38,542 bases of DNA from an uncultured Actinomycetes bacterium. GTDB taxonomy: Bacteria > Actinomycetota > Thermoleophilia > RBG-16-64-13. The position numbers and the translations under genes were made by a program. The notes below the pieces were generated by a model. The model was not told where the DNA came from, did no database searches, and saw only the letters and a program-made list of their open reading frames with translations. The stretch spans positions 1 through 38,542 of the forward strand of contig CAIQPS010000146.1 of the NCBI GenBank assembly GCA_903873715.1, in the 5' to 3' direction. Positions 5,253 through 22,170 of this stretch are shown piece by piece; the stretch's first letter is position 1, and each line of letters begins with the position of its first letter.

Positions 5253-7028
5253 ATGAACATCACCATCAACGGTAAAGAGATCGCCTTCGAACACGGCGAC
5301 ACCGTCCTCCAAGTGGCCAAACGAGCGGGCATCCGGATACCGCATCTGTGCTCGCTCGACTGGGCGCCCTCGCCCTCGGCGTCCTGCCGTCTGTGTGTGG
5401 TCGAAGTGGAAGGCTCCCCCCGCCTTCAGACCAGTTGCACGCTGCAGGCCGCCGAGGGCATGAAGGTGCAGACCCATACCCCGCGGGTCATGAAAGCCCG
5501 GCGTAACATCGTCGAGTTGCTCGTGGCCAACCATCCCCAGGATTGCCTCGCCTGCGACCGCCAGGGAGCCTGCGAACTGGCCGAACTCACCCGCGAGGTC
5601 GGCGTGCGGCCGCGGCAATACGCCGGCATGAAGAAGGACCAGCACCTGGACATCTCCTCGCCGGCCATCTACCGCGATCCCAACAAGTGCGTGCTCTGCG
5701 GGCGCTGCGTGACCATGTGCCATCAGATCCAGGGCGTTGGCGCCATCGACTTCACCGACCGCGGGTTCCGCACCCAGGTGGCGCCGGGCTTCTCGGCCGG
5801 CCTCAACGTCTCGGGCTGCACCTACTGCGGCCAGTGCGTCCGGGTCTGCCCAACGGGCGCCCTCATGGAGCGCAGCCACGTGAGCGCCGTGGTGGCCGCC
5901 CTGAGCGACCCGAACACAGTGGTGGTCGCGCAGGTGGCCCCGGCCGTCCCCGCCACTCTCGATCAGGAGCGGACCAAACACGAGGGCGTGCCCGTGATGC
6001 TCGAGCACCTCGCCGCCGCCCTCAAACGGGTGGGCTTCACCGCGGTCTTCGATACCGGCTTCACCGCCGACCTGACCATCATGGAAGAGGCCAACGAGCT
6101 GGTCGAGCGGGTGAAGACAGGCGGCGTCCTGCCGATGTTCACCAGCTGCTCCCCGGCATGGATCCAGTACGTCGAGCTCCACCGGCCGGACCTCATCCCG
6201 CACCTGTCCACCTGCAAGTCGCCGCAGCAGATGGCCGGCGCGCTCATCCACGAGATCTATCCGAAGTTCGCCGGGTTCGTCGCAGGCGACGGGACACGTG
6301 GGACCAAGCGCCTGGTGGTCGTATCGCTGATGCCCTGCACCGCCAAGAAGTTCGAGGCGGAGGACGTGGGCGACGTGGAATACGTCCTCACCACCCGGGA
6401 GCTGGGCGCTCTGTGGGAGCGGTTCGGCATCGACTTCGATTCGTTCACCGACCGAGCCCCGCTCGATCCTCCGTTCGCGGAAGCCACCGGCGCGGCCCGC
6501 CTGTTCGGGGGCACCGGCGGCGTCATGGAAGCGGCCGTGCGCACCGCGGCCACCCTGCTGGGCGGCGCCGCACCCGCCGGTCCGTTGCCCGAAGCCCGGG
6601 GCCTGGACGGCTTCAAGTGCTTCAATGTCGATGTGAACGGCATCACTCTCAACCTGGGCGTCATCAACGGTCTCGGCCGGTTGCCGTCCACCCTCCCGGC
6701 GGCCCTCTCGGGGATGCACTTCGTGGAAGTCATGTCCTGCCCGGGCGGCTGCTCCGGTGGCGGCGGCCAGCCCTACAACAGCGACATGACCGACGTCAAG
6801 AAGCGCATCAAGCGCATCTACGAGGCCGACAAGAAGGCGGAGGTCAAGTACTCCCACGAGAACAAGAGCGTGGCCGAACTCTATGAGGAGTTCCTCGGCC
6901 GTCCGCTCGGCGAGGTGTCGCACCACCTGCTGCACCGCTCCTACACCGACAAGAGCGCCCTGACTGCTCTGCACGGAGCGGAAGCGGACACCGGCGCCGT
7001 CTGCGCGGCCGCGGAGGCCGCCGCCTGA
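5253..7028 (+). CDS. hydA: [FeFe]-hydrogenase catalytic subunit (group A, trimeric type)
   Basis: 591 residues catalysing reversible proton reduction/H2 oxidation at the H-cluster. In order: a plant-type [2Fe-2S] domain (C33, then SCRLC and SC), the His-ligated [4Fe-4S] motif HPQDCLACDRQGAC, two [4Fe-4S] motifs (CVLCGRCVTMC and CTYCGQCVRVCP), the H-cluster domain, and a C-terminal small-subunit-like segment (about 508-575). H-cluster motifs are TSCSPAW (C299, S300), MPCTAKKFE (C362) and EVMSCPGGCSGGGGQP (C496, C500). The first motif has Ser where the usual TSCCPxW has its second Cys. I chose ATG 5253 over upstream in-frame ATGs (5172, 5247) because the homology starts there and GGAG lies eight bases upstream. 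Its stop overlaps the next start (TGATG). Confidence 0.96.
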   Translation: MNITINGKEIAFEHGDTVLQVAKRAGIRIPHLCSLDWAPSPSASCRLCVVEVEGSPRLQTSCTLQAAEGMKVQTHTPRVMKARRNIVELLVANHPQDCLACDRQGACELAELTREVGVRPRQYAGMKKDQHLDISSPAIYRDPNKCVLCGRCVTMCHQIQGVGAIDFTDRGFRTQVAPGFSAGLNVSGCTYCGQCVRVCPTGALMERSHVSAVVAALSDPNTVVVAQVAPAVPATLDQERTKHEGVPVMLEHLAAALKRVGFTAVFDTGFTADLTIMEEANELVERVKTGGVLPMFTSCSPAWIQYVELHRPDLIPHLSTCKSPQQMAGALIHEIYPKFAGFVAGDGTRGTKRLVVVSLMPCTAKKFEAEDVGDVEYVLTTRELGALWERFGIDFDSFTDRAPLDPPFAEATGAARLFGGTGGVMEAAVRTAATLLGGAAPAGPLPEARGLDGFKCFNVDVNGITLNLGVINGLGRLPSTLPAALSGMHFVEVMSCPGGCSGGGGQPYNSDMTDVKKRIKRIYEADKKAEVKYSHENKSVAELYEEFLGRPLGEVSHHLLHRSYTDKSALTALHGAEADTGAVCAAAEAAA

Positions 7029-9076
7029 TGGAAGGCATCATCACCACGATCAAGCAGAACTGCCGCAAGTGCTACACCTGCGTGCGGGACTGTCCGGCCA
7101 AGGCCATCCGCATCGAGGATGGCCAGGCGTCGGTGGTCGCGGAGCGGTGCATCAGCTGCGGCAACTGCACCATCGTGTGCTCGCAGGACGCCAAGGCCTA
7201 CGCGAGCGGCATCGACGGAGCGCTGCGGCTGCTCGAGCAGAGCAGGAGTTCGGTCCAGAGCGGCGGCCCGGTGGCGGCGCTGCTGGCCCCGTCCTTCCCA
7301 GTGGGTTTCTCCACCAAGCCTGACAAGGTCATCGGGGCGCTACGGGCGGCCGGGTTCGAGTACGTGGTCGAGGTGGCCTACGGCGCCGACCTGGTGAACG
7401 AGGCCTGCCACGAGTACCTGGGCAAGAACCCCACCGGGCTGCACATAGCCAGCGCATGCCCGGCCGTCGTGGAGTACGTGCGGAAGTACCACCCCGAGCT
7501 GACGGACCGCATCATGCCGATCGTCTCACCGATGGTGGCGACGGCGTTGGCGGTGAAAGAACGGTACGGCGAGCAGGTGCGGTGCGTGTTCATCGGTCCC
7601 TGTGTGGCCAAGAAGGCGGAGGTCCTCGACCCCGAAGTCGACGGCGTGATCGATGAAGTGCTGACGCTCACCGAGTTGGAGCGGGTCTTCGCCGCCCGGA
7701 ACGTCGACCTCCACAAGGCCGAATCCGGGGATTTCGACCCGCCGCACGCCGGTAGCGCCCGCATCTACCCCATCCCGGGCGGGCTGTTCGACAGCGCCGG
7801 GATCGGCGACGGCCTGCGCGACCCACGCCTCGTGGTGGTGAGCGGCAAGGACGAGACCCTCGAGATGCTGGCCGGCATCCCGGTCGGCCCACCGGAGGAG
7901 GAGGACAACGGGCTGCAGCTGGTCGAGGCGCTCATGTGCAGGGGCTGCTATGCCGGGCCCGGGGTCAAGAGCAAGGAGCCCGTGATAGCGCGCGGGCGCC
8001 GGGTGGCCGAGTTCGCCTCCAACTCCGACCTGCGCCAGAAGCACGGCACGCTGCCGCCGTACGAGCCGGCCGAGACCAGGCTGGACCTGTCTCGGCGGTT
8101 CACGCCACACGATCAGCGCAAGACCGGGCCTACCGAGGAAGAGATCCGCAGCATCCTCGCACACACGAACAAGTACTTCCCGGAGGACGAGCTCAACTGC
8201 GGCGCCTGCGGCTATCCGACCTGCCGGGCCAAGGCGGTGGCCGTCCACGCCGGCATGGCCGAAGAGGCCATGTGCCTGCCTTTCATCATCGACCAGGCCG
8301 AGCGGGTCTGCCACGAGCTCAACGTCCCGTGGAGCAACCTGCGCGACGTTCACAGCCACCTCATCAACAGCGAGAAGCTGGCGTCGATGGGACAGATGGC
8401 CGCAGGCGTGGCGCACGAGCTCAACAACCCGCTGAGCACTATCCTGCTCTACTCCCATATCCTCCAGCGGAAGCTGCACGACCGTGGCGACCTGGACCAC
8501 GACCTGCAACTGCTGGCCGAGGAGTCGGCGCGCTGCAAGAAGATCATCGGCAACCTGCTCGACTTCGCCCGGCAGAGCAGGGTGCGCATCGAGAGCGTCT
8601 CGGTGGAGCAGTTGGTGGCTTCTTCCGTGGATGGCGCTGTCGCGGCCATCCCCGCCGGCCCGAACACCCACATAGAGGTCAAGGCGGAGGTGGAGCCGGG
8701 CCTCAAGGCCGACCTCGACCGCGACCAGATGACGCAGGTGCTGGTGAACCTCATCAAGAACGGGGCGGAGGCGATGGAGGGCCGGAGCGGGACCATCCGG
8801 GTGACCGCCTGCGCGATGCCGGAGACCGGCCGGGTGCGCTTCAGCGTGAGCGACCAGGGCACCGGTATCTCGGCCAACGCCCGGGAGAAGATCTTCCAGC
8901 CCTTCTTCACCACCAAGAGCATCGGAAAAGGGACGGGCCTCGGCCTTCCCATCTCCTACGGCATCGTGAAGATGCACAACGGCAACATCTGGTACGAGAC
9001 GGAGCCGGGGCACGGCACCACTTTCTACGTCGAGATACCTATCACCCGGAAGGGTGTGGAAAGGAGCGCGCAATGA
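7028..9076 (+). CDS. Hydrogenase-like (group C type) sensor fused to histidine kinase
   Basis: 682 residues. Residues 1-55 hold a 2x[4Fe-4S] ferredoxin (CRKCYTCVRDCP, CISCGNCTIVC). Residues 80-340 are an [FeFe]-hydrogenase large-subunit domain with H-cluster-type motifs ASACPAVVEY (C144), GPCVAKKAE (C192) and MCRGCYAGPG (C304, C307), the shortened C-x2-C form I associate with sensory group C proteins. Residues 370-420 form a further Fe-S domain (C391, C394, C399, C416). From about 440 comes a histidine kinase: H463 in GVAHELNNPLS, LVNLIKNGAEAM, DQGTGIS and GKGTGLGLPIS. Known sensory hydrogenases often end in a PAS domain; here no PAS is evident and the kinase follows directly. It probably senses H2 or redox state and phosphorylates the neighbouring receivers. 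It is coupled to both neighbours by overlapping stops and starts. Confidence 0.93.
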   Translation: MEGIITTIKQNCRKCYTCVRDCPAKAIRIEDGQASVVAERCISCGNCTIVCSQDAKAYASGIDGALRLLEQSRSSVQSGGPVAALLAPSFPVGFSTKPDKVIGALRAAGFEYVVEVAYGADLVNEACHEYLGKNPTGLHIASACPAVVEYVRKYHPELTDRIMPIVSPMVATALAVKERYGEQVRCVFIGPCVAKKAEVLDPEVDGVIDEVLTLTELERVFAARNVDLHKAESGDFDPPHAGSARIYPIPGGLFDSAGIGDGLRDPRLVVVSGKDETLEMLAGIPVGPPEEEDNGLQLVEALMCRGCYAGPGVKSKEPVIARGRRVAEFASNSDLRQKHGTLPPYEPAETRLDLSRRFTPHDQRKTGPTEEEIRSILAHTNKYFPEDELNCGACGYPTCRAKAVAVHAGMAEEAMCLPFIIDQAERVCHELNVPWSNLRDVHSHLINSEKLASMGQMAAGVAHELNNPLSTILLYSHILQRKLHDRGDLDHDLQLLAEESARCKKIIGNLLDFARQSRVRIESVSVEQLVASSVDGAVAAIPAGPNTHIEVKAEVEPGLKADLDRDQMTQVLVNLIKNGAEAMEGRSGTIRVTACAMPETGRVRFSVSDQGTGISANAREKIFQPFFTTKSIGKGTGLGLPISYGIVKMHNGNIWYETEPGHGTTFYVEIPITRKGVERSAQ

Positions 9077-9501
9077 GCGACCCGGCGAACGGACACGGCA
9101 GCGCCGACAGCGGACCCTGGACCATGCTGTTCGTGGACGACGACACCGATTTCCTGGCAGCCCAGGAGGCCTTCTTCGGCAGCCGCGGCCACAAAGTGGT
9201 GACCGCGGACAGCAGCGCGGACGCGCTGGAGATACTCGAGGCTCTCAACCCGGACATAGTCTTCCTCGATCTGATGATGGAGCGCTACGACAGCGGCTTC
9301 CGGCTGGCCCACGAACTGCGCAAACGCGAGCACCTCAAGGACGTGCCCTTCGTGATGCTGAGCGGAGTGGCCCGGGAGACCGGCGAGCGGTTCGACCAGG
9401 AGGGCAAAGGCCTGCTTTCGTGGACCAAGCTCGACCGGTTCGTGGACAAGCCGGCCACCGGCAGACAACTGCTGGCCGTGGCGGAGGAACTGCTGTCATG
9501 A
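9073..9501 (+). CDS. Second stand-alone receiver protein
   Basis: 142 residues, a single receiver domain after a short, low-complexity head. The acidic pocket is D22-D23-D24, the phospho-acceptor D66 in IVFLDLMM, the Ser in VMLSG and the Lys in FVDKP. There is no output domain. The ATG overlaps the stop of the sensor kinase (ATGA, 9073-9076), with AAGGAG at 9061-9066, so the kinase and receiver are translationally coupled and probably cognate. It resembles the receiver at 2072. Confidence 0.9.
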   Translation: MSDPANGHGSADSGPWTMLFVDDDTDFLAAQEAFFGSRGHKVVTADSSADALEILEALNPDIVFLDLMMERYDSGFRLAHELRKREHLKDVPFVMLSGVARETGERFDQEGKGLLSWTKLDRFVDKPATGRQLLAVAEELLS

Positions 9502-11057
9502 GCGACCCGGCGGCGAAACCCGGCACGGAGGCCCCGGCGGCGCCGGGCAGCGCCGGCACGGCCGCCGCTGCGCCGGGCCCAGGAACGGAGCCGGCCGCTG
9601 CGGCGGCCCCCGCCCGTATCCTCGTCGTCGACGACGAGTACGGCGTCCGCTCCGCCGTCGCCCAGATCCTCGAACTGGAAGGCTACGAAGTGGCCAGCGC
9701 CGCCAGCGGCGAGGAGGCTCTCGCGCTCCTCGCCTCCCCCGGCTTCGACATCGCCCTGCTCGACTACCGGCTGCCAGACACCGACGGCCTGGCCCTGCAC
9801 AAGGACATCCTGGCCACCGGCCGGCAGATCATGACCTGCATGATCACCGCCTACGCCGACATCGACCTGGCCTGCGCCGCCACGTTCCAGGGCATCGACT
9901 TCTTCCTGCCCAAGCCCTTCATGCCGGACGACCTCCTCAACGTCGTCGCGACGCTGGTGAAGCGCCGGCAGGCCCGCGCCGAGGAAGAGCGGCTGCGCCG
10001 GGAGCACGAGGCGAGCCTCCTGGCCCTGGCGGAAGAGAAGTCGCAGACCCACTCGCTCATCTCGTCGCTGCGCGACGCGGTGCTCGTCATCAACCAGACA
10101 GGCGACGTGGTGCTCGCCAACCAGGCGATGACCGCCCTTCTGGAATCGACCGAGCCCGAGGTCCTGCGCCGCCCTGTGGCAGGGCTCCTACGCGGCGGCC
10201 CGCTCGCCTCCCTCATCGATACGCTCGAGTCGCCGGCCAAGGACCGCACCATCGGCCAGCTCTCCATCGGGGAGCGGGACTTCATGACCAGCATCGTCAC
10301 GTTCCGGGCGGAGGACGGCAGCGCGCTGGGACGCATCCTCACGCTCTCGGACATCTCCCAGGTGCGCCGCCTGGCGATGGAGAAGGAGAAGTTCATCCGG
10401 ACGATGGTGCACGAGCTCAAATCGCCCCTGGGAGCGGTGAGGAGCATCATCGAGGTGACCACCGACAAGAGCATGGGCGACGACCTGGAGGCCTATCTGC
10501 CCCTGTTGCGCCGGGCGGAGACCCGCATCGACGACCTCGTGCAGCTCATCAGCGACCTGCTATCGCTCTCCAAGAGCGAGCAGGCCAAGGCGGCGAGCGA
10601 GCCCCAACTCCTGGAGGTGGCGCCCCTCGTGGAGGCGGCGCTGGCCGGCCAGGCTGAACACCTGGCGGCCCGAGGCATCACCGCTTCGGTGCAGGTGGAG
10701 CCGGGACTGCCGCCGGTGCTCGCCCCCATCGAGGACCTGGAGCTCATCCTCAACAACCTCGCCGGGAACGCCGTCAAGTACAACCGGGTGGGTGGCTCCG
10801 TGACGATCTCCGCGCGCCACGAGGGCGAATGGGTGCGCATCGACGTGGAGGACACCGGCATCGGCATCGCGGCCGAGAACGTCGACCAGGTGTTCACCGA
10901 GTTCTTCCGCGAGAAACGGCCCGAGACCAAGGGCCTGGAAGGCAGCGGCCTGGGTCTCTCCATCGTCAAGCGTCTCACCGAGCGCGCCGGCGGGCGCCTG
11001 CAACTGGCCAGCGGACTGGGCGAAGGTTCTGTATTCTCGGTCTTCCTACCGGCGTAG
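9498..11057 (+). CDS. Receiver-PAS-histidine kinase hybrid
   Basis: 519 residues, cytoplasmic, with no transmembrane segment. After an Ala/Pro-rich head (1-38) there is a receiver with D45-D46, phospho-acceptor D89 (ALLDYRLPDTDG) and FLPKPF, then a coiled linker rich in Arg/Glu. A PAS-like domain follows at about 185-285 (DAVLVINQTGDVVLANQAM). The kinase has H305 in MVHELKSPLG, an N-box LNNLAGNAVKYN, DTGIGI and EGSGLGLSIVKRL. The order receiver-PAS-kinase suggests that an upstream phosphate signal tunes a second kinase. The start overlaps the previous stop (ATGA). No DNA-binding output is encoded near it, so its target is unknown. Confidence 0.92.
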   Translation: MSDPAAKPGTEAPAAPGSAGTAAAAPGPGTEPAAAAAPARILVVDDEYGVRSAVAQILELEGYEVASAASGEEALALLASPGFDIALLDYRLPDTDGLALHKDILATGRQIMTCMITAYADIDLACAATFQGIDFFLPKPFMPDDLLNVVATLVKRRQARAEEERLRREHEASLLALAEEKSQTHSLISSLRDAVLVINQTGDVVLANQAMTALLESTEPEVLRRPVAGLLRGGPLASLIDTLESPAKDRTIGQLSIGERDFMTSIVTFRAEDGSALGRILTLSDISQVRRLAMEKEKFIRTMVHELKSPLGAVRSIIEVTTDKSMGDDLEAYLPLLRRAETRIDDLVQLISDLLSLSKSEQAKAASEPQLLEVAPLVEAALAGQAEHLAARGITASVQVEPGLPPVLAPIEDLELILNNLAGNAVKYNRVGGSVTISARHEGEWVRIDVEDTGIGIAAENVDQVFTEFFREKRPETKGLEGSGLGLSIVKRLTERAGGRLQLASGLGEGSVFSVFLPA

Positions 11058-14842: not shown

Positions 14843-14877
14843 GTATCTATCCTTCGGTGGTGCCCCTCATCGGTCCG

Positions 14878-15498
14878 TCAGTGCGGGGCTTTCAGTAGAT
14901 CGACATACATCTCGAGGACGAGGCGCGGGTCGGCCGCGATCTCCGTGGCCACCTCGCTGAGGTCTATCCCCGTCACGGTCACCATCCCGTGCACCAGCGA
15001 CCAGAGGCCGTAGGCCATCTGCGGGGCGGTACACAGACCGTCCTGGCGGAACACTCCCTCCTGGACGCCCTGGCGCAACGTCTCCCCGATCATGCGCGCG
15101 GCCCCCAGGCCGAGGGCCTTCCCGCTCGAAGGGGGAAGCTCGAGGGAGGTGGAGAGCATCATGCAGCGCAGGTCCATGGGGTTGTCGTTGGCGAACTCCA
15201 TGTAGGCGACGCCGAGCTCCACGATGCGCCGGTCGGGGGGCAGATCGGTGGGGACCCGGCGCAGATAGGCGTCCAACCGTTCGAACGACTCGCCGAACAG
15301 CGAGGCGATGAGCGAGTCCTTGCTCGGGAAGTAGGTGTAGAGAGCGGCAGGGCTGAAATCGGCGCGGCGCGCGACCTGGCGAAGGCTGAGACCCTCGGGG
15401 CCCACCTCCAGCAGGAGCTCCCTGGCTGCGTCGAGGATCTCGGCGCGGGTGCTGAGGCGTCTGCGATCCCGGCGAGAGAGAGATACCGTCTCGTCCAT
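14878..15498 (-). CDS. TetR-family regulator of the MMPL exporter
   Basis: 206 residues. The N-terminal helix-turn-helix is typical: ILDAARELLLEVGPEGLSLRQVARRADFSPAALYTYFPSKDSL (about residues 20-62). The C-terminal ligand-binding part resembles the WHG-type TetR group. I chose ATG 15498 because GGGAGGAAG lies upstream at a proper distance; longer in-frame starts up to 15582 would run through the palindromic operator region. It precedes the MMPL gene in the same direction and probably represses both genes through the GAAC palindromes upstream. Confidence 0.92.
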   Translation of the reverse strand: MDETVSLSRRDRRRLSTRAEILDAARELLLEVGPEGLSLRQVARRADFSPAALYTYFPSKDSLIASLFGESFERLDAYLRRVPTDLPPDRRIVELGVAYMEFANDNPMDLRCMMLSTSLELPPSSGKALGLGAARMIGETLRQGVQEGVFRQDGLCTAPQMAYGLWSLVHGMVTVTGIDLSEVATEIAADPRLVLEMYVDLLKAPH

Positions 15499-15538
15499 GC
15501 CCGTCTCTTCCTCCCAGACTGCGGTCGGAGCGGTTTTC

Positions 15539-15587
15539 GAACATCCATTGTTCAATAGAACGCTGCGCGACATTCCGAACACCGTTC
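15539..15587. promoter_or_regulatory. Cluster of GAAC/GTTC palindromes, likely TetR operator
   Basis: GAACA-TCCAT-TGTTC (15539-15553), GTTC-AATA-GAAC (15550-15561) and GAAC-ACC-GTTC (15577-15587) overlap or follow closely in the region between the leftward TetR gene and the rightward membrane-protein gene. Dyads like these directly upstream of a TetR gene are typical of autoregulatory operators. No confident promoter hexamers were identified. Confidence 0.5.
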
Positions 15588-15703
15588 TGAAAGCAATGAT
15601 ACCCCTTGGTAACGGATATCGACCTGAAAGCTTCCTTAAAGAAGACAGCGGGCGCTATCATGGCGCGCGACCACATCCGCCGATAGCCTCTAGGGAGGAT
15701 TCG

Positions 15704-16165: not shown

Positions 16166-17311
16166 CTACCCGGCGCGGCGCCGGCCACCGGGCCCGGACC
16201 CAGCGCTCCGGCCTATCGATTCGATGCGTCCTACGAGGCGGCCCCGGCCCATATCGGCGGTCTCGTTGATGCAGGCCTTGTCCGGGTAGATCTCGTACAG
16301 CACGCGGTACTTGGGCGGGGTGAGGTTCGGCATGACGATGTTGGCGCCCCGCTGCAGGCCCAGTTCCCGGCCGGATTCCTTGTTGATGGTGGCGAGCGCT
16401 GTGGTGCTGGGGATGTTGGCTTCGGGGCAGACCATCCGGGTGACGGCCACCGCGCGGTAGACCATGAGTTCGTCGTTGGGGACCTGGTCCGTCGGCGGCG
16501 GGGCCGAGCCGCCGCTGCCGAGCGGGGTCCCGGGGTGTGGGATGTAGGGGCCGATGCCGATCATGTCTAGGTCCAAGGCGCGGAAGGTCTCAATGTCCCG
16601 GGCGACGGTCTCGTATGTCTGCCCGGGGATGCCCACCATGATGCCGCTGCCTATCTCGTAGCCCATGTCGCGGAGATGGCGCAGCAGGTCCAGCCGGTCG
16701 TTGGGGTGCGAATCGCCGCGCCGGCCGGGGCCGGGCGGGTGGATGCGCCTGTAGAGAGCCGGGTCGGAGGTCTCGAAGCGGACGAGATAGCGGTCGGCCC
16801 CGGCCTCCCGCCAGGCCCGCACGTCCTCCAGGGAGCGCTCGCCCAGGCTGAGCGTCACCGCAAGCCCCGTCTCCGCCTTGATGCGGCGCACCACCCCGGA
16901 GATGAACTCGCGGGTGAGCCCCGGGTCCTCGCCGGCCTGGAGCACGGTGGTGCCCCAGCCGTAGGCCAGAGCCTCGCGCGCGCAACCGACGATCTCGTCC
17001 TCGGTCATGCGGTAGCGGTCGACGGACGTGTTGCCGCCGCGGATGCCGCAGTAGCCGCACAGGCGCACGCAGTGGTTGGAGATCTCCACGAGACCGCGGA
17101 GGTGCACCTGGTCGCCGACGTGCTCGCGGCGGACGGTGTCGGCCTGTTCCCACAGGTCTTCCAGGCGCGCCGGGTCGGTCTCGCGAAGCCGACGCAGGAT
17201 CTCCTCGTGACTGAGGAGGGTGACGGGCGGGGCAGCCACCGGGGGGACCGGCCCGGCGACCTGGACGGCTGCCGCGGCGGCCGGCGCTGCGCCGCACGCC
17301 GGCGCAGTCAT
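16166..17311 (-). CDS. hydE: [FeFe]-hydrogenase maturase HydE (radical SAM)
   Basis: 381 residues. HydE is a radical SAM enzyme that acts on the HydG-made Fe(CO)2CN-cysteine complex on the way to the diiron subcluster of the H-cluster. The SAM cluster motif is CVRLCGYC (C81, C85, C88). GVVRRIK, TLSLGE and the Gly-rich IGSGIMVGIPGQT are in the expected places, and the C-terminus ends in an Arg/Gly-rich tail. The first 30 residues are Ala/Pro-rich and not part of the barrel. The ATG overlaps the hydF stop by one base; a longer open frame to 17626 only shadows hydF. It is the last gene of the operon hydG-aspA-hydF-hydE. Confidence 0.96.
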   Translation of the reverse strand: MTAPACGAAPAAAAAVQVAGPVPPVAAPPVTLLSHEEILRRLRETDPARLEDLWEQADTVRREHVGDQVHLRGLVEISNHCVRLCGYCGIRGGNTSVDRYRMTEDEIVGCAREALAYGWGTTVLQAGEDPGLTREFISGVVRRIKAETGLAVTLSLGERSLEDVRAWREAGADRYLVRFETSDPALYRRIHPPGPGRRGDSHPNDRLDLLRHLRDMGYEIGSGIMVGIPGQTYETVARDIETFRALDLDMIGIGPYIPHPGTPLGSGGSAPPPTDQVPNDELMVYRAVAVTRMVCPEANIPSTTALATINKESGRELGLQRGANIVMPNLTPPKYRVLYEIYPDKACINETADMGRGRLVGRIESIGRSAGSGPGGRRRAG

Positions 17312-18693
17312 CAGCGGCCTCCCGCCATGCCGAGCGGCCTGATGGCCGGAGCGCGGCCCGTGGCTGCGCGCACGATGTCGAGCGCCGCCGGGAAGGGCTG
17401 CAGAGCCCGCTCGAAGATGCCGAGGCTGTAGGCGATCGACAGGCCGTAGTTGGTGACCGGCACACCGGCCTGCTTGCACCGCAGGATGCGGGTGAGCATC
17501 GCCCGGCGGTTGGCCGTGCAGGCCCCACAATGGATGACCGCGCTGTAGCCGGACAGATCCTCGGGGAAGTCGTGCCCCTGCACCATGTCGACCTCGAGCT
17601 TGCCGCCCACGTACTGGTTGAGCCACCGCGGGATCTTCACCCGCCCGATGTCGTCGGCGATGGGATGGTGGCTACACGACTCGGCGATGAGGATGCGGTC
17701 GCCGGGCCGCAGGTTCTCGAGCGCCAGCGCTCCTTCCACCTGGGCGGTCAGGTCGCCTTTGAACCGGGCGAACAGGATTGAGAAGCTGGTCATGGGGATG
17801 TCCGGCGGAGTGTCCGCCGCCACTTTGAGGAAGGCCTGGGAATCGGTGACCACCAGCTTGGGCGGCGTGTTGAGGCGCGCGAGAGCCGTGCGCAGTTCCC
17901 GCTCCTTGACCACCAGCGCCATGGCATCGGCGTCGAGCAGGTCGCGGATGGACTGCACCTGCGGCAGGATGAGCCGGCCGCGCGGAGCTTCCTTGTCGAC
18001 CGGTACCACCAGCACCGCGAGGCCGTCGGGGCCCACCAGGTCGGAGAGGATGGCCGGGTTCTCGATGAAGTGCTCCGGCGCGCTCTGCAGCAGCGCCTCC
18101 CGCACGTCGAGGATGCCTTCGCGGCGAAGGGCCGAGACCGCCACCGTCTTGACCTTGGCCGCGGCAAGAGCCGCGGCGGCAGCCGCAGGCACCGCGGCCT
18201 TCCCGTCGATGGTGTCGATCTTGTTGAAGACGGCCACGGCCGGGATGCCGCGCCCGCTCAGTTCGGCAAGGATCTGCTCCTCGAAGTCGCCCCACTCCGC
18301 CGCTTCGGTCACGATCACGCCGAGGTCGGTGCGATCGAAGACCTGGAGCGTCCGGCGGGCCCGCAACTCGCCCAGGGCGCCCACGTCGTCCAGACCGGCC
18401 GTGTCGATGAACAGCACCGGGCCGAGGGGCAACAGCTCCATGGGCTTCTCCACCGGGTCGGTGGTCGTCCCCGCCTGCTCCGACACGATGGACACGTCCT
18501 GCCGGGTGATGGCGTTGAGCAGGCTGGACTTGCCGACGTTGCGCCGGCCGAAGAAGGCGATGTGCAGGCGCATGCCCCGCGGGGTGTCGTTGAGGCCGCC
18601 GGCGAAGCCGGCGCCGGGGGTGACCGCCGAGGCTGGGGCGGCGAAGCCGCCGGTGGGCGCGGCGCCTCGGCCCGCGCCGGGGGTCATGCTCAT
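17311..18693 (-). CDS. hydF: [FeFe]-hydrogenase maturase HydF (GTPase scaffold)
   Basis: 460 residues. HydF is the GTPase and scaffold that carries the diiron subcluster precursor and delivers it to HydA. The GTPase domain has GRRNVGKSS (49-57), the switch TTTDPVEK, DTAGLDD and NKID. The C-terminal cluster site is C340-S-H342 with HCGAC (C389, C392), matching the family's CxH...HCxxC pattern. The first 40 residues are a low-complexity Gly/Ala/Pro head not usual for HydF. The start overlaps the aspA stop as ATGA (18690-18693). Confidence 0.96.
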   Translation of the reverse strand: MSMTPGAGRGAAPTGGFAAPASAVTPGAGFAGGLNDTPRGMRLHIAFFGRRNVGKSSLLNAITRQDVSIVSEQAGTTTDPVEKPMELLPLGPVLFIDTAGLDDVGALGELRARRTLQVFDRTDLGVIVTEAAEWGDFEEQILAELSGRGIPAVAVFNKIDTIDGKAAVPAAAAAALAAAKVKTVAVSALRREGILDVREALLQSAPEHFIENPAILSDLVGPDGLAVLVVPVDKEAPRGRLILPQVQSIRDLLDADAMALVVKERELRTALARLNTPPKLVVTDSQAFLKVAADTPPDIPMTSFSILFARFKGDLTAQVEGALALENLRPGDRILIAESCSHHPIADDIGRVKIPRWLNQYVGGKLEVDMVQGHDFPEDLSGYSAVIHCGACTANRRAMLTRILRCKQAGVPVTNYGLSIAYSLGIFERALQPFPAALDIVRAATGRAPAIRPLGMAGGR

Positions 18694-20228
18694 AGCGTGT
18701 CCGTCCTCCCTCCGGCCGGGGTGCGGCCGGGAGCGATGTCGGGGCTGCCCAGGCGGGTGACCGCCTCGGGCGAAAGAAGCTGGTCGACCTCGGCCTCGGT
18801 GAGGATGCCGTCGTCCACGACGGTCGCCCGGATGGTCCGGCCCGTCTCCAGCGCACGGGCGGCCACGGCCGCCGCGCCCTCGTAGCCGAGCGCCGGCAGG
18901 AGCGCCGTCACGCTCGCGGTCGAGGACTCGACCTGGGCGCGGCAGCGAGCCTCGTCCACGGTGATGCCCTCCACGCAGTGCCGCCGCAGGATGTCGCAGG
19001 CCCCACTCAGCAGCCGGATGGACTCGAGCAGACAGTCGGCGATGAGCGGCAGGTAGGGGTTCAGGTCCAGCGATCCGCCGGCCGCGGCGGCGGCTATCGC
19101 CTGGTCGTACGCCATCACCATCATGGCCGCCTGGGCGACGGCCTCCGGGATCACCGGGTTGACCTTCCCCGGCATGATGCTTGAACCGGCCTGCCGCTGC
19201 GGCAGCCGGATCTCGCCGAAGCCGGCTTCCGGCCCCGAGGAGAGCAGGCGCAGGTCGTTGGATATCTTGAGCAGGGTGGCGGCGCAGGCCTTGAGGATGC
19301 CCGACACCTCCACGAACACGTCTGCGTTCTGCGTTGCTTCCACCAGGTTCTCCGCCCGGGCGAAGCCGATGCCGGTGAGCTCCCGCAGGGTATCGACCAC
19401 GCGGAAGATGAACTGCCGCGGCGCCGCCAACCCGGTCCCGATGGCGGTGCCTCCCAGGTTGACCACCCGCAGCCGTTCCTCGCATTTGTAGACCCGCCAG
19501 CGGTCCCGGCTGAGGGCCTCCGCGTAAGCGCCCATCTCGCGTCCGAGGGTGGTGAGCACCGCGTCCTGCATCTCCGTGCGCGCGACCTTCACCACGTGGG
19601 CGTACTTCTGTTCCAAAGCCTGGAACGCTTCCTGCAGGGCCACGAGCCGGTCCTCGAGCGCGTGGAGCAGGAGGATGGCCGCCAGCCGCAGGGCCGTCGG
19701 ATACGTGTCGTTGGTGGATTGATGCAGGTTGATGTCGTCGAGAGGCGAGATCTGGCCGTAGGAGCCGGGGGCGCTGCCGCGGAGCTGCAGCGCGCGGTTC
19801 GCCAGCACCTCGTTGACGTTCATGTTGGTGCTCGTCCCGGCCGCACCCTGAAGGCGGTCGACCAGCACGTGCTCCGTAAGCCGGCCCTCGGCCATCTCCC
19901 GGCAGGCCGCCTCGATGGCGTCCGCCTTCTCCGGTTCCTCGGCCCATGCGCCGAGCGCACGGTTGGTGAGCGCGCAGGCGAGCTTGACGGCGCCGTATGC
20001 GGCGACCAGTTCGGCGTGCACCGGCCTTCCGGCCAGGGGGAAGTTCGCGAGGGCCCGGACCGTGTGGATGCCGTACAGGGCGTCCGCCGGCACCTCCTGG
20101 AAGCCGAGCAGGTCGCGCTCCAGGCGGAAGCCGGGCGCGGCGCCGGCAGGCGCCGGGGGGAAAGCGCCTACCGGTGCCGCGCCGTCGCTGCGGCCTCCGC
20201 TCGCGTCCTGCCTGCTAGCAGAAGACAT
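18690..20228 (-). CDS. aspA: Aspartate ammonia-lyase
   Basis: 512 residues. It converts aspartate to fumarate and ammonia. The superfamily signature GSSIMPGKVNP is near residue 350, followed by VIPEAV, as in aspartases rather than class II fumarases. The N-terminal RLERDLLGFQEVPADALYGIHT block and TSTNMNVNEVLANRA also favour aspartase. The first 33 residues are Ala/Pro/Gly-rich and extra. The ATG at 20228 lies 14 bases inside the end of hydG, and the end overlaps hydF, so the gene is an integral part of the maturation operon. Ammonia for the azadithiolate nitrogen is a plausible job, which is an inference from position. Confidence 0.92.
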   Translation of the reverse strand: MSSASRQDASGGRSDGAAPVGAFPPAPAGAAPGFRLERDLLGFQEVPADALYGIHTVRALANFPLAGRPVHAELVAAYGAVKLACALTNRALGAWAEEPEKADAIEAACREMAEGRLTEHVLVDRLQGAAGTSTNMNVNEVLANRALQLRGSAPGSYGQISPLDDINLHQSTNDTYPTALRLAAILLLHALEDRLVALQEAFQALEQKYAHVVKVARTEMQDAVLTTLGREMGAYAEALSRDRWRVYKCEERLRVVNLGGTAIGTGLAAPRQFIFRVVDTLRELTGIGFARAENLVEATQNADVFVEVSGILKACAATLLKISNDLRLLSSGPEAGFGEIRLPQRQAGSSIMPGKVNPVIPEAVAQAAMMVMAYDQAIAAAAAGGSLDLNPYLPLIADCLLESIRLLSGACDILRRHCVEGITVDEARCRAQVESSTASVTALLPALGYEGAAAVAARALETGRTIRATVVDDGILTEAEVDQLLSPEAVTRLGSPDIAPGRTPAGGRTDTL

Positions 20229-22113
20229 CTCGTCTGCCCTCGCGCACCCGCGCGATCTGCCTTTCGGCCACCTGGCGCTCGAACGGGTCCATGGCTTCCA
20301 ACTCGGCCACGATGCGGGCCTCGCCGGCGGCACGCGTCCGCTCGGAAGCGAAATCCATCAGGTACTCCTCGAAGGTGGACAGGGCGTTGGGCTGGCACAT
20401 GTGCTTGATCTCGCCCGGTTTGGCCAGGTCCATGAAGTCGTGGCCGGTGCGGCCCAGGCGGTAGCAGGCGGTGCAGAACGACGGGGTGTAGCCCAGTTCG
20501 GCCACATCCCGCATGACCTCATCCAGCGACCGGTGGTCGCCCATCTGGAACTGCTGCGCCTCGAACTCCTCGTCGTCGGCGTAGCCGCCGGGGTTGGTGC
20601 GGCTGCCGCCGGAGATCTGCGACACGCCCAAGGCAAAGGTCTCGCGCCGGATGTTGGGCGTCTCCCGGGTGGACATGATGATGCCCGTGTACGGCACCGC
20701 CAGACGCAGGATGGCGACGATCTTGCGGAAGTCCACATCGGACACCGCGTAGGGCGGATGGCTGGCATAGTCGGAACCGACGGCCGGCTCCATCCGCGGG
20801 ACGCTCAGCGTGTGCGGACCGACCCCGTAGGCGTCCTCGAGGTGACGGATGTGCTGGAGCAGCGCCAGGATCTCGAAGCGCCAGTCGAACAGCCCGAACA
20901 GCACCCCGATGCCCACGTCGTCCACGCCGGCCTGCATGGCCCGGTCGGGCGCGGTGATGCGGTAGTCGTAGTCCTTCTTCTTGCCGGCCACGTGCATCCG
21001 GGCGTAGGTGTCGCGGTGGTAGGTCTCCTGGAAGATCTGGTACGTCCCGATGCCGGTGGCCTTCAGCTGCTTGAACTCCTCGACGGTCAGGGGCGCGACG
21101 TTCACGTTCACCCGGCGGATCTCGCCTTTGGGCCGCTTCACCGCGTACACCGACTCGATGCTCTTGAGCACGTAGTCGAACCCTTCGCGCGGATACGACT
21201 CGCCCGCCACCAGCAGCACGCGCTTGTGGCCCTGGTCGATCAGCAGGCCTACCTCGTCCCGGATCTCTTCCTGGGTGAGTGCGCGGCGCTTGATCTCCTT
21301 GTTGCGGGCCCGGAAGGCGCAATAGAGACACTCGTTGCCGCACAGGTTGGAGATGTAGAGCGGCGCGAACATGACGATGCGGTTGCCGTATATCTGCTCT
21401 TTGACCTTGCGGGCCGTGGCGAACAGTTCGCCGAGCAGGTCGGGCTCGCTCACCTGGGCGAGAGCCGCCACTTCCTCTTCTTCCAGGCCCTTGAGCTCGA
21501 GGGCCTTGGTCAGCACCCTGCGCACGTAGTCCGCGTCGCGGCTCCTCGACTCCTGCAGCACCGCGAAGATACGTTCCTCGTCTATGGGGACCTTGCCGCC
21601 GTTGCGGCGCAATGTCTCCGCCTCGGCTTCGGCATCCGCCCCCGACGTCGCCTCGGCCGCGGCTTTCACCGGCCGGCGGTGGGCGTGCCGCGACACGAAC
21701 TCGGTGACCCGCTCCAGCGTGTCGCCGGCGATGGCATGCTCTACGGCGCATGCCTCCTGCTCGGCGTCGTCGCTTGGAAGACCGAGGATGTCGGAGAACA
21801 GGTGGATCAGCACCTGGTGACGGTCGAGCATCTCGTTGGCCACGCGCCAACCCTCGGCCGTCAGTTCGACGGCGCCGTAGCTCTCGTGCTCCACCAAGCC
21901 GCGTTTGGCCAACTGGGAGATGGCCTCCGAAGCCGAGGGGACTTTGACGCCCCGAGCGGCCGCGATGTCGGACATCTTGGCGCTGCCCTCGGCCAGCGAG
22001 AGCGAAGCGATGGTCTTGAGGTAGTCCTCCATGCGGGAGGTGAGATCGAGCGCGGCGGTCATCGGACCGTCGCCCGGATCAGGAACGCTCTGGGGGGTGA
22101 GTTCGGCGTTCAA
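20215..22113 (-). CDS. hydG: DtxR/MntR-type repressor fused to HydG (CO/CN-forming radical SAM maturase)
   Basis: 632 residues in one uninterrupted frame. Residues 28-143 are a complete DtxR/MntR module: MEDYLKTI, a winged helix (MSDIAAARGVKVPSASEAI, then LTAEG) and a dimerisation/metal part with RHQV and EACAVEH. D30, C122, E125 and H126 match the primary metal site of the family. After an Ala/Glu-rich linker (144-174) comes full HydG, which splits tyrosine to make CO and cyanide bound to iron. Its radical SAM cysteines are C258, C262 and C265 (CGNECLYC), and its C-terminal cluster is C547, C550 and C573 (C-x2-C-x22-C). I chose TTG 22113 because a perfect AGGAGG is seven bases upstream; ATG 22170 would overlap the promoter, and ATG 22062 has no good site but would still include both domains. 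Confidence 0.92.
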   Translation of the reverse strand: MNAELTPQSVPDPGDGPMTAALDLTSRMEDYLKTIASLSLAEGSAKMSDIAAARGVKVPSASEAISQLAKRGLVEHESYGAVELTAEGWRVANEMLDRHQVLIHLFSDILGLPSDDAEQEACAVEHAIAGDTLERVTEFVSRHAHRRPVKAAAEATSGADAEAEAETLRRNGGKVPIDEERIFAVLQESRSRDADYVRRVLTKALELKGLEEEEVAALAQVSEPDLLGELFATARKVKEQIYGNRIVMFAPLYISNLCGNECLYCAFRARNKEIKRRALTQEEIRDEVGLLIDQGHKRVLLVAGESYPREGFDYVLKSIESVYAVKRPKGEIRRVNVNVAPLTVEEFKQLKATGIGTYQIFQETYHRDTYARMHVAGKKKDYDYRITAPDRAMQAGVDDVGIGVLFGLFDWRFEILALLQHIRHLEDAYGVGPHTLSVPRMEPAVGSDYASHPPYAVSDVDFRKIVAILRLAVPYTGIIMSTRETPNIRRETFALGVSQISGGSRTNPGGYADDEEFEAQQFQMGDHRSLDEVMRDVAELGYTPSFCTACYRLGRTGHDFMDLAKPGEIKHMCQPNALSTFEEYLMDFASERTRAAGEARIVAELEAMDPFERQVAERQIARVREGRRDVFC

Positions 22114-22114
22114 G

Positions 22115-22143
22115 TTAGGGCCTCCTAAGTAAGGGTGCCCTAA
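22115..22143 (-). promoter_or_regulatory. Two tandem DtxR-type boxes over the hydG leader and ribosome binding site
   Basis: TTAGG-GCCT-CCTAA (22115-22128) is a perfect dyad and TAAGG-GTGC-CCTAA (22130-22143) an almost perfect one, separated by a single base. TTAGG/CCTAA half-sites are those of DtxR/IdeR operators (consensus TTAGGTTAGGCTAACCTAA), although the spacing here is shorter. Read on the minus strand, the proximal box contains the Shine-Dalgarno AGGAGG (22126-22121) for the TTG at 22113, and the distal box touches the -10. Confidence 0.7.
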
Positions 22144-22170
22144 GTTTACAGCAAGCTGTGAAACTTTCAA
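22143..22170 (-). promoter_or_regulatory. Probable promoter of the hydG-aspA-hydF-hydE operon
   Basis: On the minus strand TTGAAA (22170-22165) is followed after 16 bases by TAAACT (22148-22143), giving a leader of only about 23 bases. The -10 touches the distal DtxR-type box. TGTGAAACTTTCAACA (22157-22172, plus strand) overlaps the -35 and is a degraded Rex-like dyad: the left half is perfect and the right half matches three of five. Confidence 0.5.

Follow-up and report, generated by a model that had tools for sequence, protein, structure and literature searches.

How H-cluster maturases are matched to metal supply in cells is, to our knowledge, poorly understood. The genes of these maturases have a known companion in aspA (PMC11736057), and HydG (TIGR03955; PDB 4wcx) normally has about 470 residues and no DtxR-like domain. 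Among metalloregulators of the DtxR family, the iron selectivity of IdeR rests on Met10 and Cys102, whereas the corresponding MntR residues are Asp or Asn and Glu (PMC10317159); the MntR of P. gingivalis, with a D-C-E-H metal site, binds both Mn(II) and Fe(II) (PMC4805248). Repressive IdeR boxes overlap the -10 element or the start site (PMC10317159). Enzymes that also contain a DNA-binding part, such as BirA, PutA and NadR, have been described as trigger enzymes (PMC8249747).

The window analysed here is a stretch of 38,542 nucleotides from an uncultured Actinomycetes bacterium, whose genome (G000; 3.3 Mb, 97% complete) encodes a protein in which a DtxR-like module precedes a complete HydG. 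One intact open frame of the minus strand (22113–20215), with a TTG start and a Shine-Dalgarno AGGAGG at 22126–22121, gives a product of 632 residues. Residues 22–146 (21676–22050) form a DtxR/MntR-type module of a winged helix followed by metal-binding and dimerisation helices, matched by Pfam Fe_dep_repress (PF01325, residues 23–82, 46.8 bits against a cut-off of 26) and Fe_dep_repr_C (PF02742, residues 85–142, 51.6 bits against 27). An Ala/Glu-rich, variable linker (residues 147–172; 21598–21675) leads to the HydG part, from about residue 173 to 632 (20215–21597), which contains Radical_SAM (253–409) and BATS (437–543) domains; residues 178–630 match rSAM_HydG (TIGR03955) with 541 bits against a cut-off of 312, covering positions 13–468 of the 470 in the model. 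Both cluster motifs, CxxxCxxC (C258, C262, C265) and CxxCx22C (C547, C550, C573), are invariant among 15 aligned HydG sequences. The fusion protein is made of known parts in a new combination, and the description of a DtxR-like module and full-length HydG with both cluster sites in a single frame, as given by the first-pass annotation, agrees with domain models and motifs alike.

The second genome in which we find the fusion (G001) belongs to another genus of the same family and encodes it end to end, with 79% identity overall and the same gene order. Because a second assembly from another genus contains the whole fusion, a frameshift joining two genes, a chimera or an assembly artefact is ruled out, which answers a reservation attached to the initial description. 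Just 5′ of the HydG part the two species have in common no in-frame start codon preceded by a good Shine-Dalgarno, although each has weak single candidates (in-frame GTG or TTG codons). The DtxR module is 71% identical between the genera (NG86 dN 0.20, dS 1.40) and the HydG part 83% identical (dN 0.12, dS 1.04), with dS at or above 1, and so close to saturation that the dN/dS ratios are rough. Rough as they are, these ratios exclude decay of the DtxR half, and purifying selection acts on the module and HydG alike. The winged-helix and metal halves of the module are equally conserved, at 71% each, while the linker retains 54% identity and is 17 residues longer in G001. Third-position GC is high in every segment of the gene. 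The G001 gene also has an imperfect tandem duplication of its Shine-Dalgarno and start region (L045 444–478; repeats 444–460 and 462–478): the first start position reads TAG, and the repeat apparently provides another Shine-Dalgarno and TTG in place of the lost start codon.

In the AF2 model of the full-length protein confidence is high for the HydG part only; the DtxR half, covered by 2 sequences, is of low confidence, with helices and wing in the expected order. Modelled with 17 sequences, the module alone reaches a pLDDT of 91, and Foldseek matches it to B. subtilis MntR (TMq 0.83, prob 1.00), DR2539 and IdeR. The metal-ligand positions are D30, K33, H99, C122, E125 and H126. Both fusions have D30, H99, C122, E125 and H126, in agreement with the four ligand residues named in the first-pass annotation (D30, C122, E125, H126). 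Compared with the MntR set (Asp8, Glu11, His77, Glu99, Glu102, His103) the module differs at two of six positions, one being K33 at the position of Glu11, where the manganese-dependent repressor DR2539 likewise has Lys, and it falls short of the MntR equivalog models NF008273 (77 bits against 153) and NF003025 (60 against 138). With respect to the sulfur ligands of IdeR and DtxR, Met10 and Cys102, C122 is present and D30 replaces Met10. The predicted site is a hybrid, MntR-like at D30, DtxR/IdeR-like at C122 and with K33 instead of Glu11, so that the label 'DtxR/MntR-type' stands at the level of family and fold but does not describe the ligand set. D30, C122, E125 and H126 give the same D-C-E-H combination as in P. 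gingivalis MntR, a regulator described with both iron and manganese elements (PMC4805248) that differs in carrying FeoA domains and no enzyme. The module shares with MntR, DR2539 and IdeR a two-domain fold, most metal ligands and IdeR-type half-site boxes over its promoter; it differs from them in its attachment to an enzyme, its hybrid site and the lack of an SH3/FeoA domain.

The fusion gene heads an operon of the order hydG-aspA-hydF-hydE, all on the minus strand and overlapping throughout: aspA, for aspartate ammonia-lyase (18690–20228), overlaps the end of hydG by 14 nt, hydF (17311–18693) that of aspA by 4 nt and hydE (16166–17311) that of hydF by 1 nt. A sigma-70-like promoter, TTGAAA-16-TAAACT, lies at 22143–22170 on the same strand (TTTACA-16-TATACT in G001). 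Between the end of its -10 element and the Shine-Dalgarno of the fusion gene there are two tandem TTAGGnnnnCCTAA boxes on the minus strand, a sequence published as the IdeR half-site (PMC10317159). Box 1, TTAGGGCACCCTTA, with one mismatch (22130–22143), adjoins the -10, and box 2, TTAGGAGGCCCTAA, an exact match (22115–22128), includes the AGGAGG. The CCTAA-repeat operator of IdeR/DtxR regulators is thus present as two tandem half-sites over 22115–22143, and it is kept in G001, where TTAGGCTGCCCTTA and TTAGGAGGTCCTAA stand at the corresponding positions; the rest of the upstream region is poorly conserved between the two genomes. Mononucleotide shuffles of the 217-bp region gave an exact box in 0.016% and the tandem pair in 0 of 200,000, frequencies at which a chance origin of the boxes is rejected.

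The exact box occurs at one other site in G000, ahead of the gene for an FTR1 iron permease, which the long dtxR gene follows. In relatives the box precedes FTR1 (G003) and FeoAB (G003 and G005), and it stands shortly upstream of dtxR genes in eight genomes (G001, G005, G008, G015, G019, G024, G039 and G054). A control pattern, the motif read backwards, is commoner than the box itself, and about as many box matches must be due to chance, so the motif alone is weak evidence; some matches, for example one within a MiaB-like gene of G001 (contig C33), are probably fortuitous. What counts is the tandem placement of the boxes, their conservation and their gene context. In a set of 15 unfused hydG genes, none is preceded by a box at 0–1 mismatch, and the unfused hydG of G008 has one with two mismatches. 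At unfused hydG the boxes are missing even from genomes with standalone DtxR genes, which speaks for their arrival with the fusion.

The fusion is rare among the Actinomycetota sampled. A survey of HydG homologues within this phylum, of the kind proposed in the first-pass annotation, found it in 2 of about 59 HydG-bearing genomes, from about 1,250 sampled (round numbers), and no DtxR domain occurs in any other HydG examined. Two of the three HydG genes among 18 genomes of the order are fused, the third (G008) being unfused and more distant. At the level of the class, 16 of 399 genomes have HydG, counting a fragment at a contig edge whose N-terminus is not covered (G029), and only G000 and G001 carry the fusion. 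HydG of the sister family (13 of 15 genomes) is never fused. The phylum sample added one further clear HydG (G608), in whose class HydG is present in 43 of 400 genomes, none of them fused. Phyla beyond Actinomycetota were covered by plasmids, which contained no DtxR-HydG fusion, and by a contig scan with the DtxR module, which brought up a single fusion, that of the G001 record, besides nine relatives with no HydG nearby. We found no paper on a DtxR-HydG protein in the open literature.

In trees the HydG parts of the two fusions group as a clade close to the HydG of the sister family, and the fused modules make up a long branch of their own among short MntR-like proteins. A derivation of the module from the standalone DtxR genes of G000 is not supported, the fused pair grouping with neither paralogue. 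The nearest free relatives, at 39–43% identity, come from WOR-3, Latescibacterota and Krumholzibacteriia; where the contig continues they head dtxR-feoA-feoB operons, and they are preceded by TTAG...CTAA pairs covering the -10 and Shine-Dalgarno. Since these relatives share a similar two-box operator, module and operator probably arrived together, and a single fusion event in the ancestor of both genera would be the simplest history. At four loci of WOR-3 and Krumholzibacteriia MAGs (L046, L047, L049, L051) the operon consists of dtxR and feoB, with or without feoA, behind an operator of two boxes with the Shine-Dalgarno inside it. Two genomes also carry a second HydG gene, divergent and grouping with that of G008 (L067 and L068; G049 C265 and G044 C208), with no other homologue of the window's hyd maturases nearby.

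Because boxes resembling those of an iron switch lie just upstream of its gene, the fusion enzyme probably controls its own production. We think it reasonably likely that this HydG maturase acts as a trigger enzyme, in which the DtxR half, once loaded with metal, represses the hydG-aspA-hydF-hydE operon. When the labile pool of a divalent metal is high, most likely Fe(II) and possibly Mn(II), the DtxR halves would take up metal, dimerise and occupy both tandem boxes, which reach from the -10 as far as the Shine-Dalgarno; occupancy of the boxes would repress the operon, which would be released when metal is scarce. DNA binding, dimerisation, repression and the identity of the metal are what we infer from sequence and models. 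The self-regulating maturase first suggested for this locus accordingly stands as far as the fusion and its place at the head of the operon are concerned, and the conserved tandem boxes are new evidence for control from upstream, with repression itself the putative step. Some points count against self-repression, a reading drawn from two genomes only. Glu63 in the module occupies the position of IdeR Gln43, a residue that contacts bases, and the benefit of repressing maturases under plentiful iron is not obvious, although supply might be matched to scarcity, or the loop might serve simple homeostasis of HydG. It is doubtful, if conceivable, that iron occupancy or turnover of HydG also alters metal loading or pairing of the module, in which case the operon would read the demand for H-cluster assembly and not the bulk metal pool alone.

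The main rival to self-repression holds that a separate DtxR protein controls the operon, the free regulators of both genomes having similar boxes. The operon would then belong to an ordinary DtxR/IdeR iron regulon, with the fused module as a passenger or competitor of little regulatory role. G000 has two standalone DtxR-family genes (C5 and C133) and G001 has one (C67), similar boxes lie upstream of standalone dtxR genes and iron transporters, and these proteins could act at the fusion promoter. We nevertheless consider this unlikely, given that hydG has no boxes where such regulators coexist with an unfused gene, that the fused module is under purifying selection and that no long IdeR-like gene turned up in G001 (96% complete).

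Two other explanations appear much less probable. The module might have lost its DNA role and serve HydG as an aid to metal binding or dimerisation, for instance by supplying Fe(II) for the fifth iron in the auxiliary cluster of HydG; its metal ligands are kept, and HydG requires an extra 'dangler' iron according to the title of reference 47 in PMC6212873. Such a role accounts poorly for a winged-helix half as conserved as the metal half, and for the matching operator conserved beside it. It is similarly improbable that DtxR and HydG arise from the gene as separate proteins, through an internal start or cleavage of the linker: the variable linker and the possible GTG/TTG codons in each species would allow it, but the two share no internal start with a Shine-Dalgarno, and both keep a single stop-free frame.

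Like BirA, PutA and NadR, the fusion joins an enzyme to a DNA-binding part and would likely control its own genes; those proteins respond to the enzyme's substrate or ligand, whereas here a dedicated metal sensor is placed on a radical SAM maturase. If self-repression is true, a dedicated metalloregulator joins the short list of enzymes controlling their own genes, and the operon would be a self-contained, metal-controlled unit of maturation. A maturase with its own metal repressor and a visible operator makes the question of metal supply directly testable.

Further along the window, a frame at 14867–15676 on the minus strand, between hydE and an MMPL transporter gene, has a 36% identical counterpart in the same place in G001 and matches nothing in Pfam or NCBIfam. 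Downstream of hydA, a plus-strand gene at 7028–9076 joins a [FeFe]-hydrogenase-like N-terminal half (TIGR04105 at residues 75–315) to a histidine kinase and is followed by a second histidine kinase gene (9054–11057); its product looks like a sensory hydrogenase.
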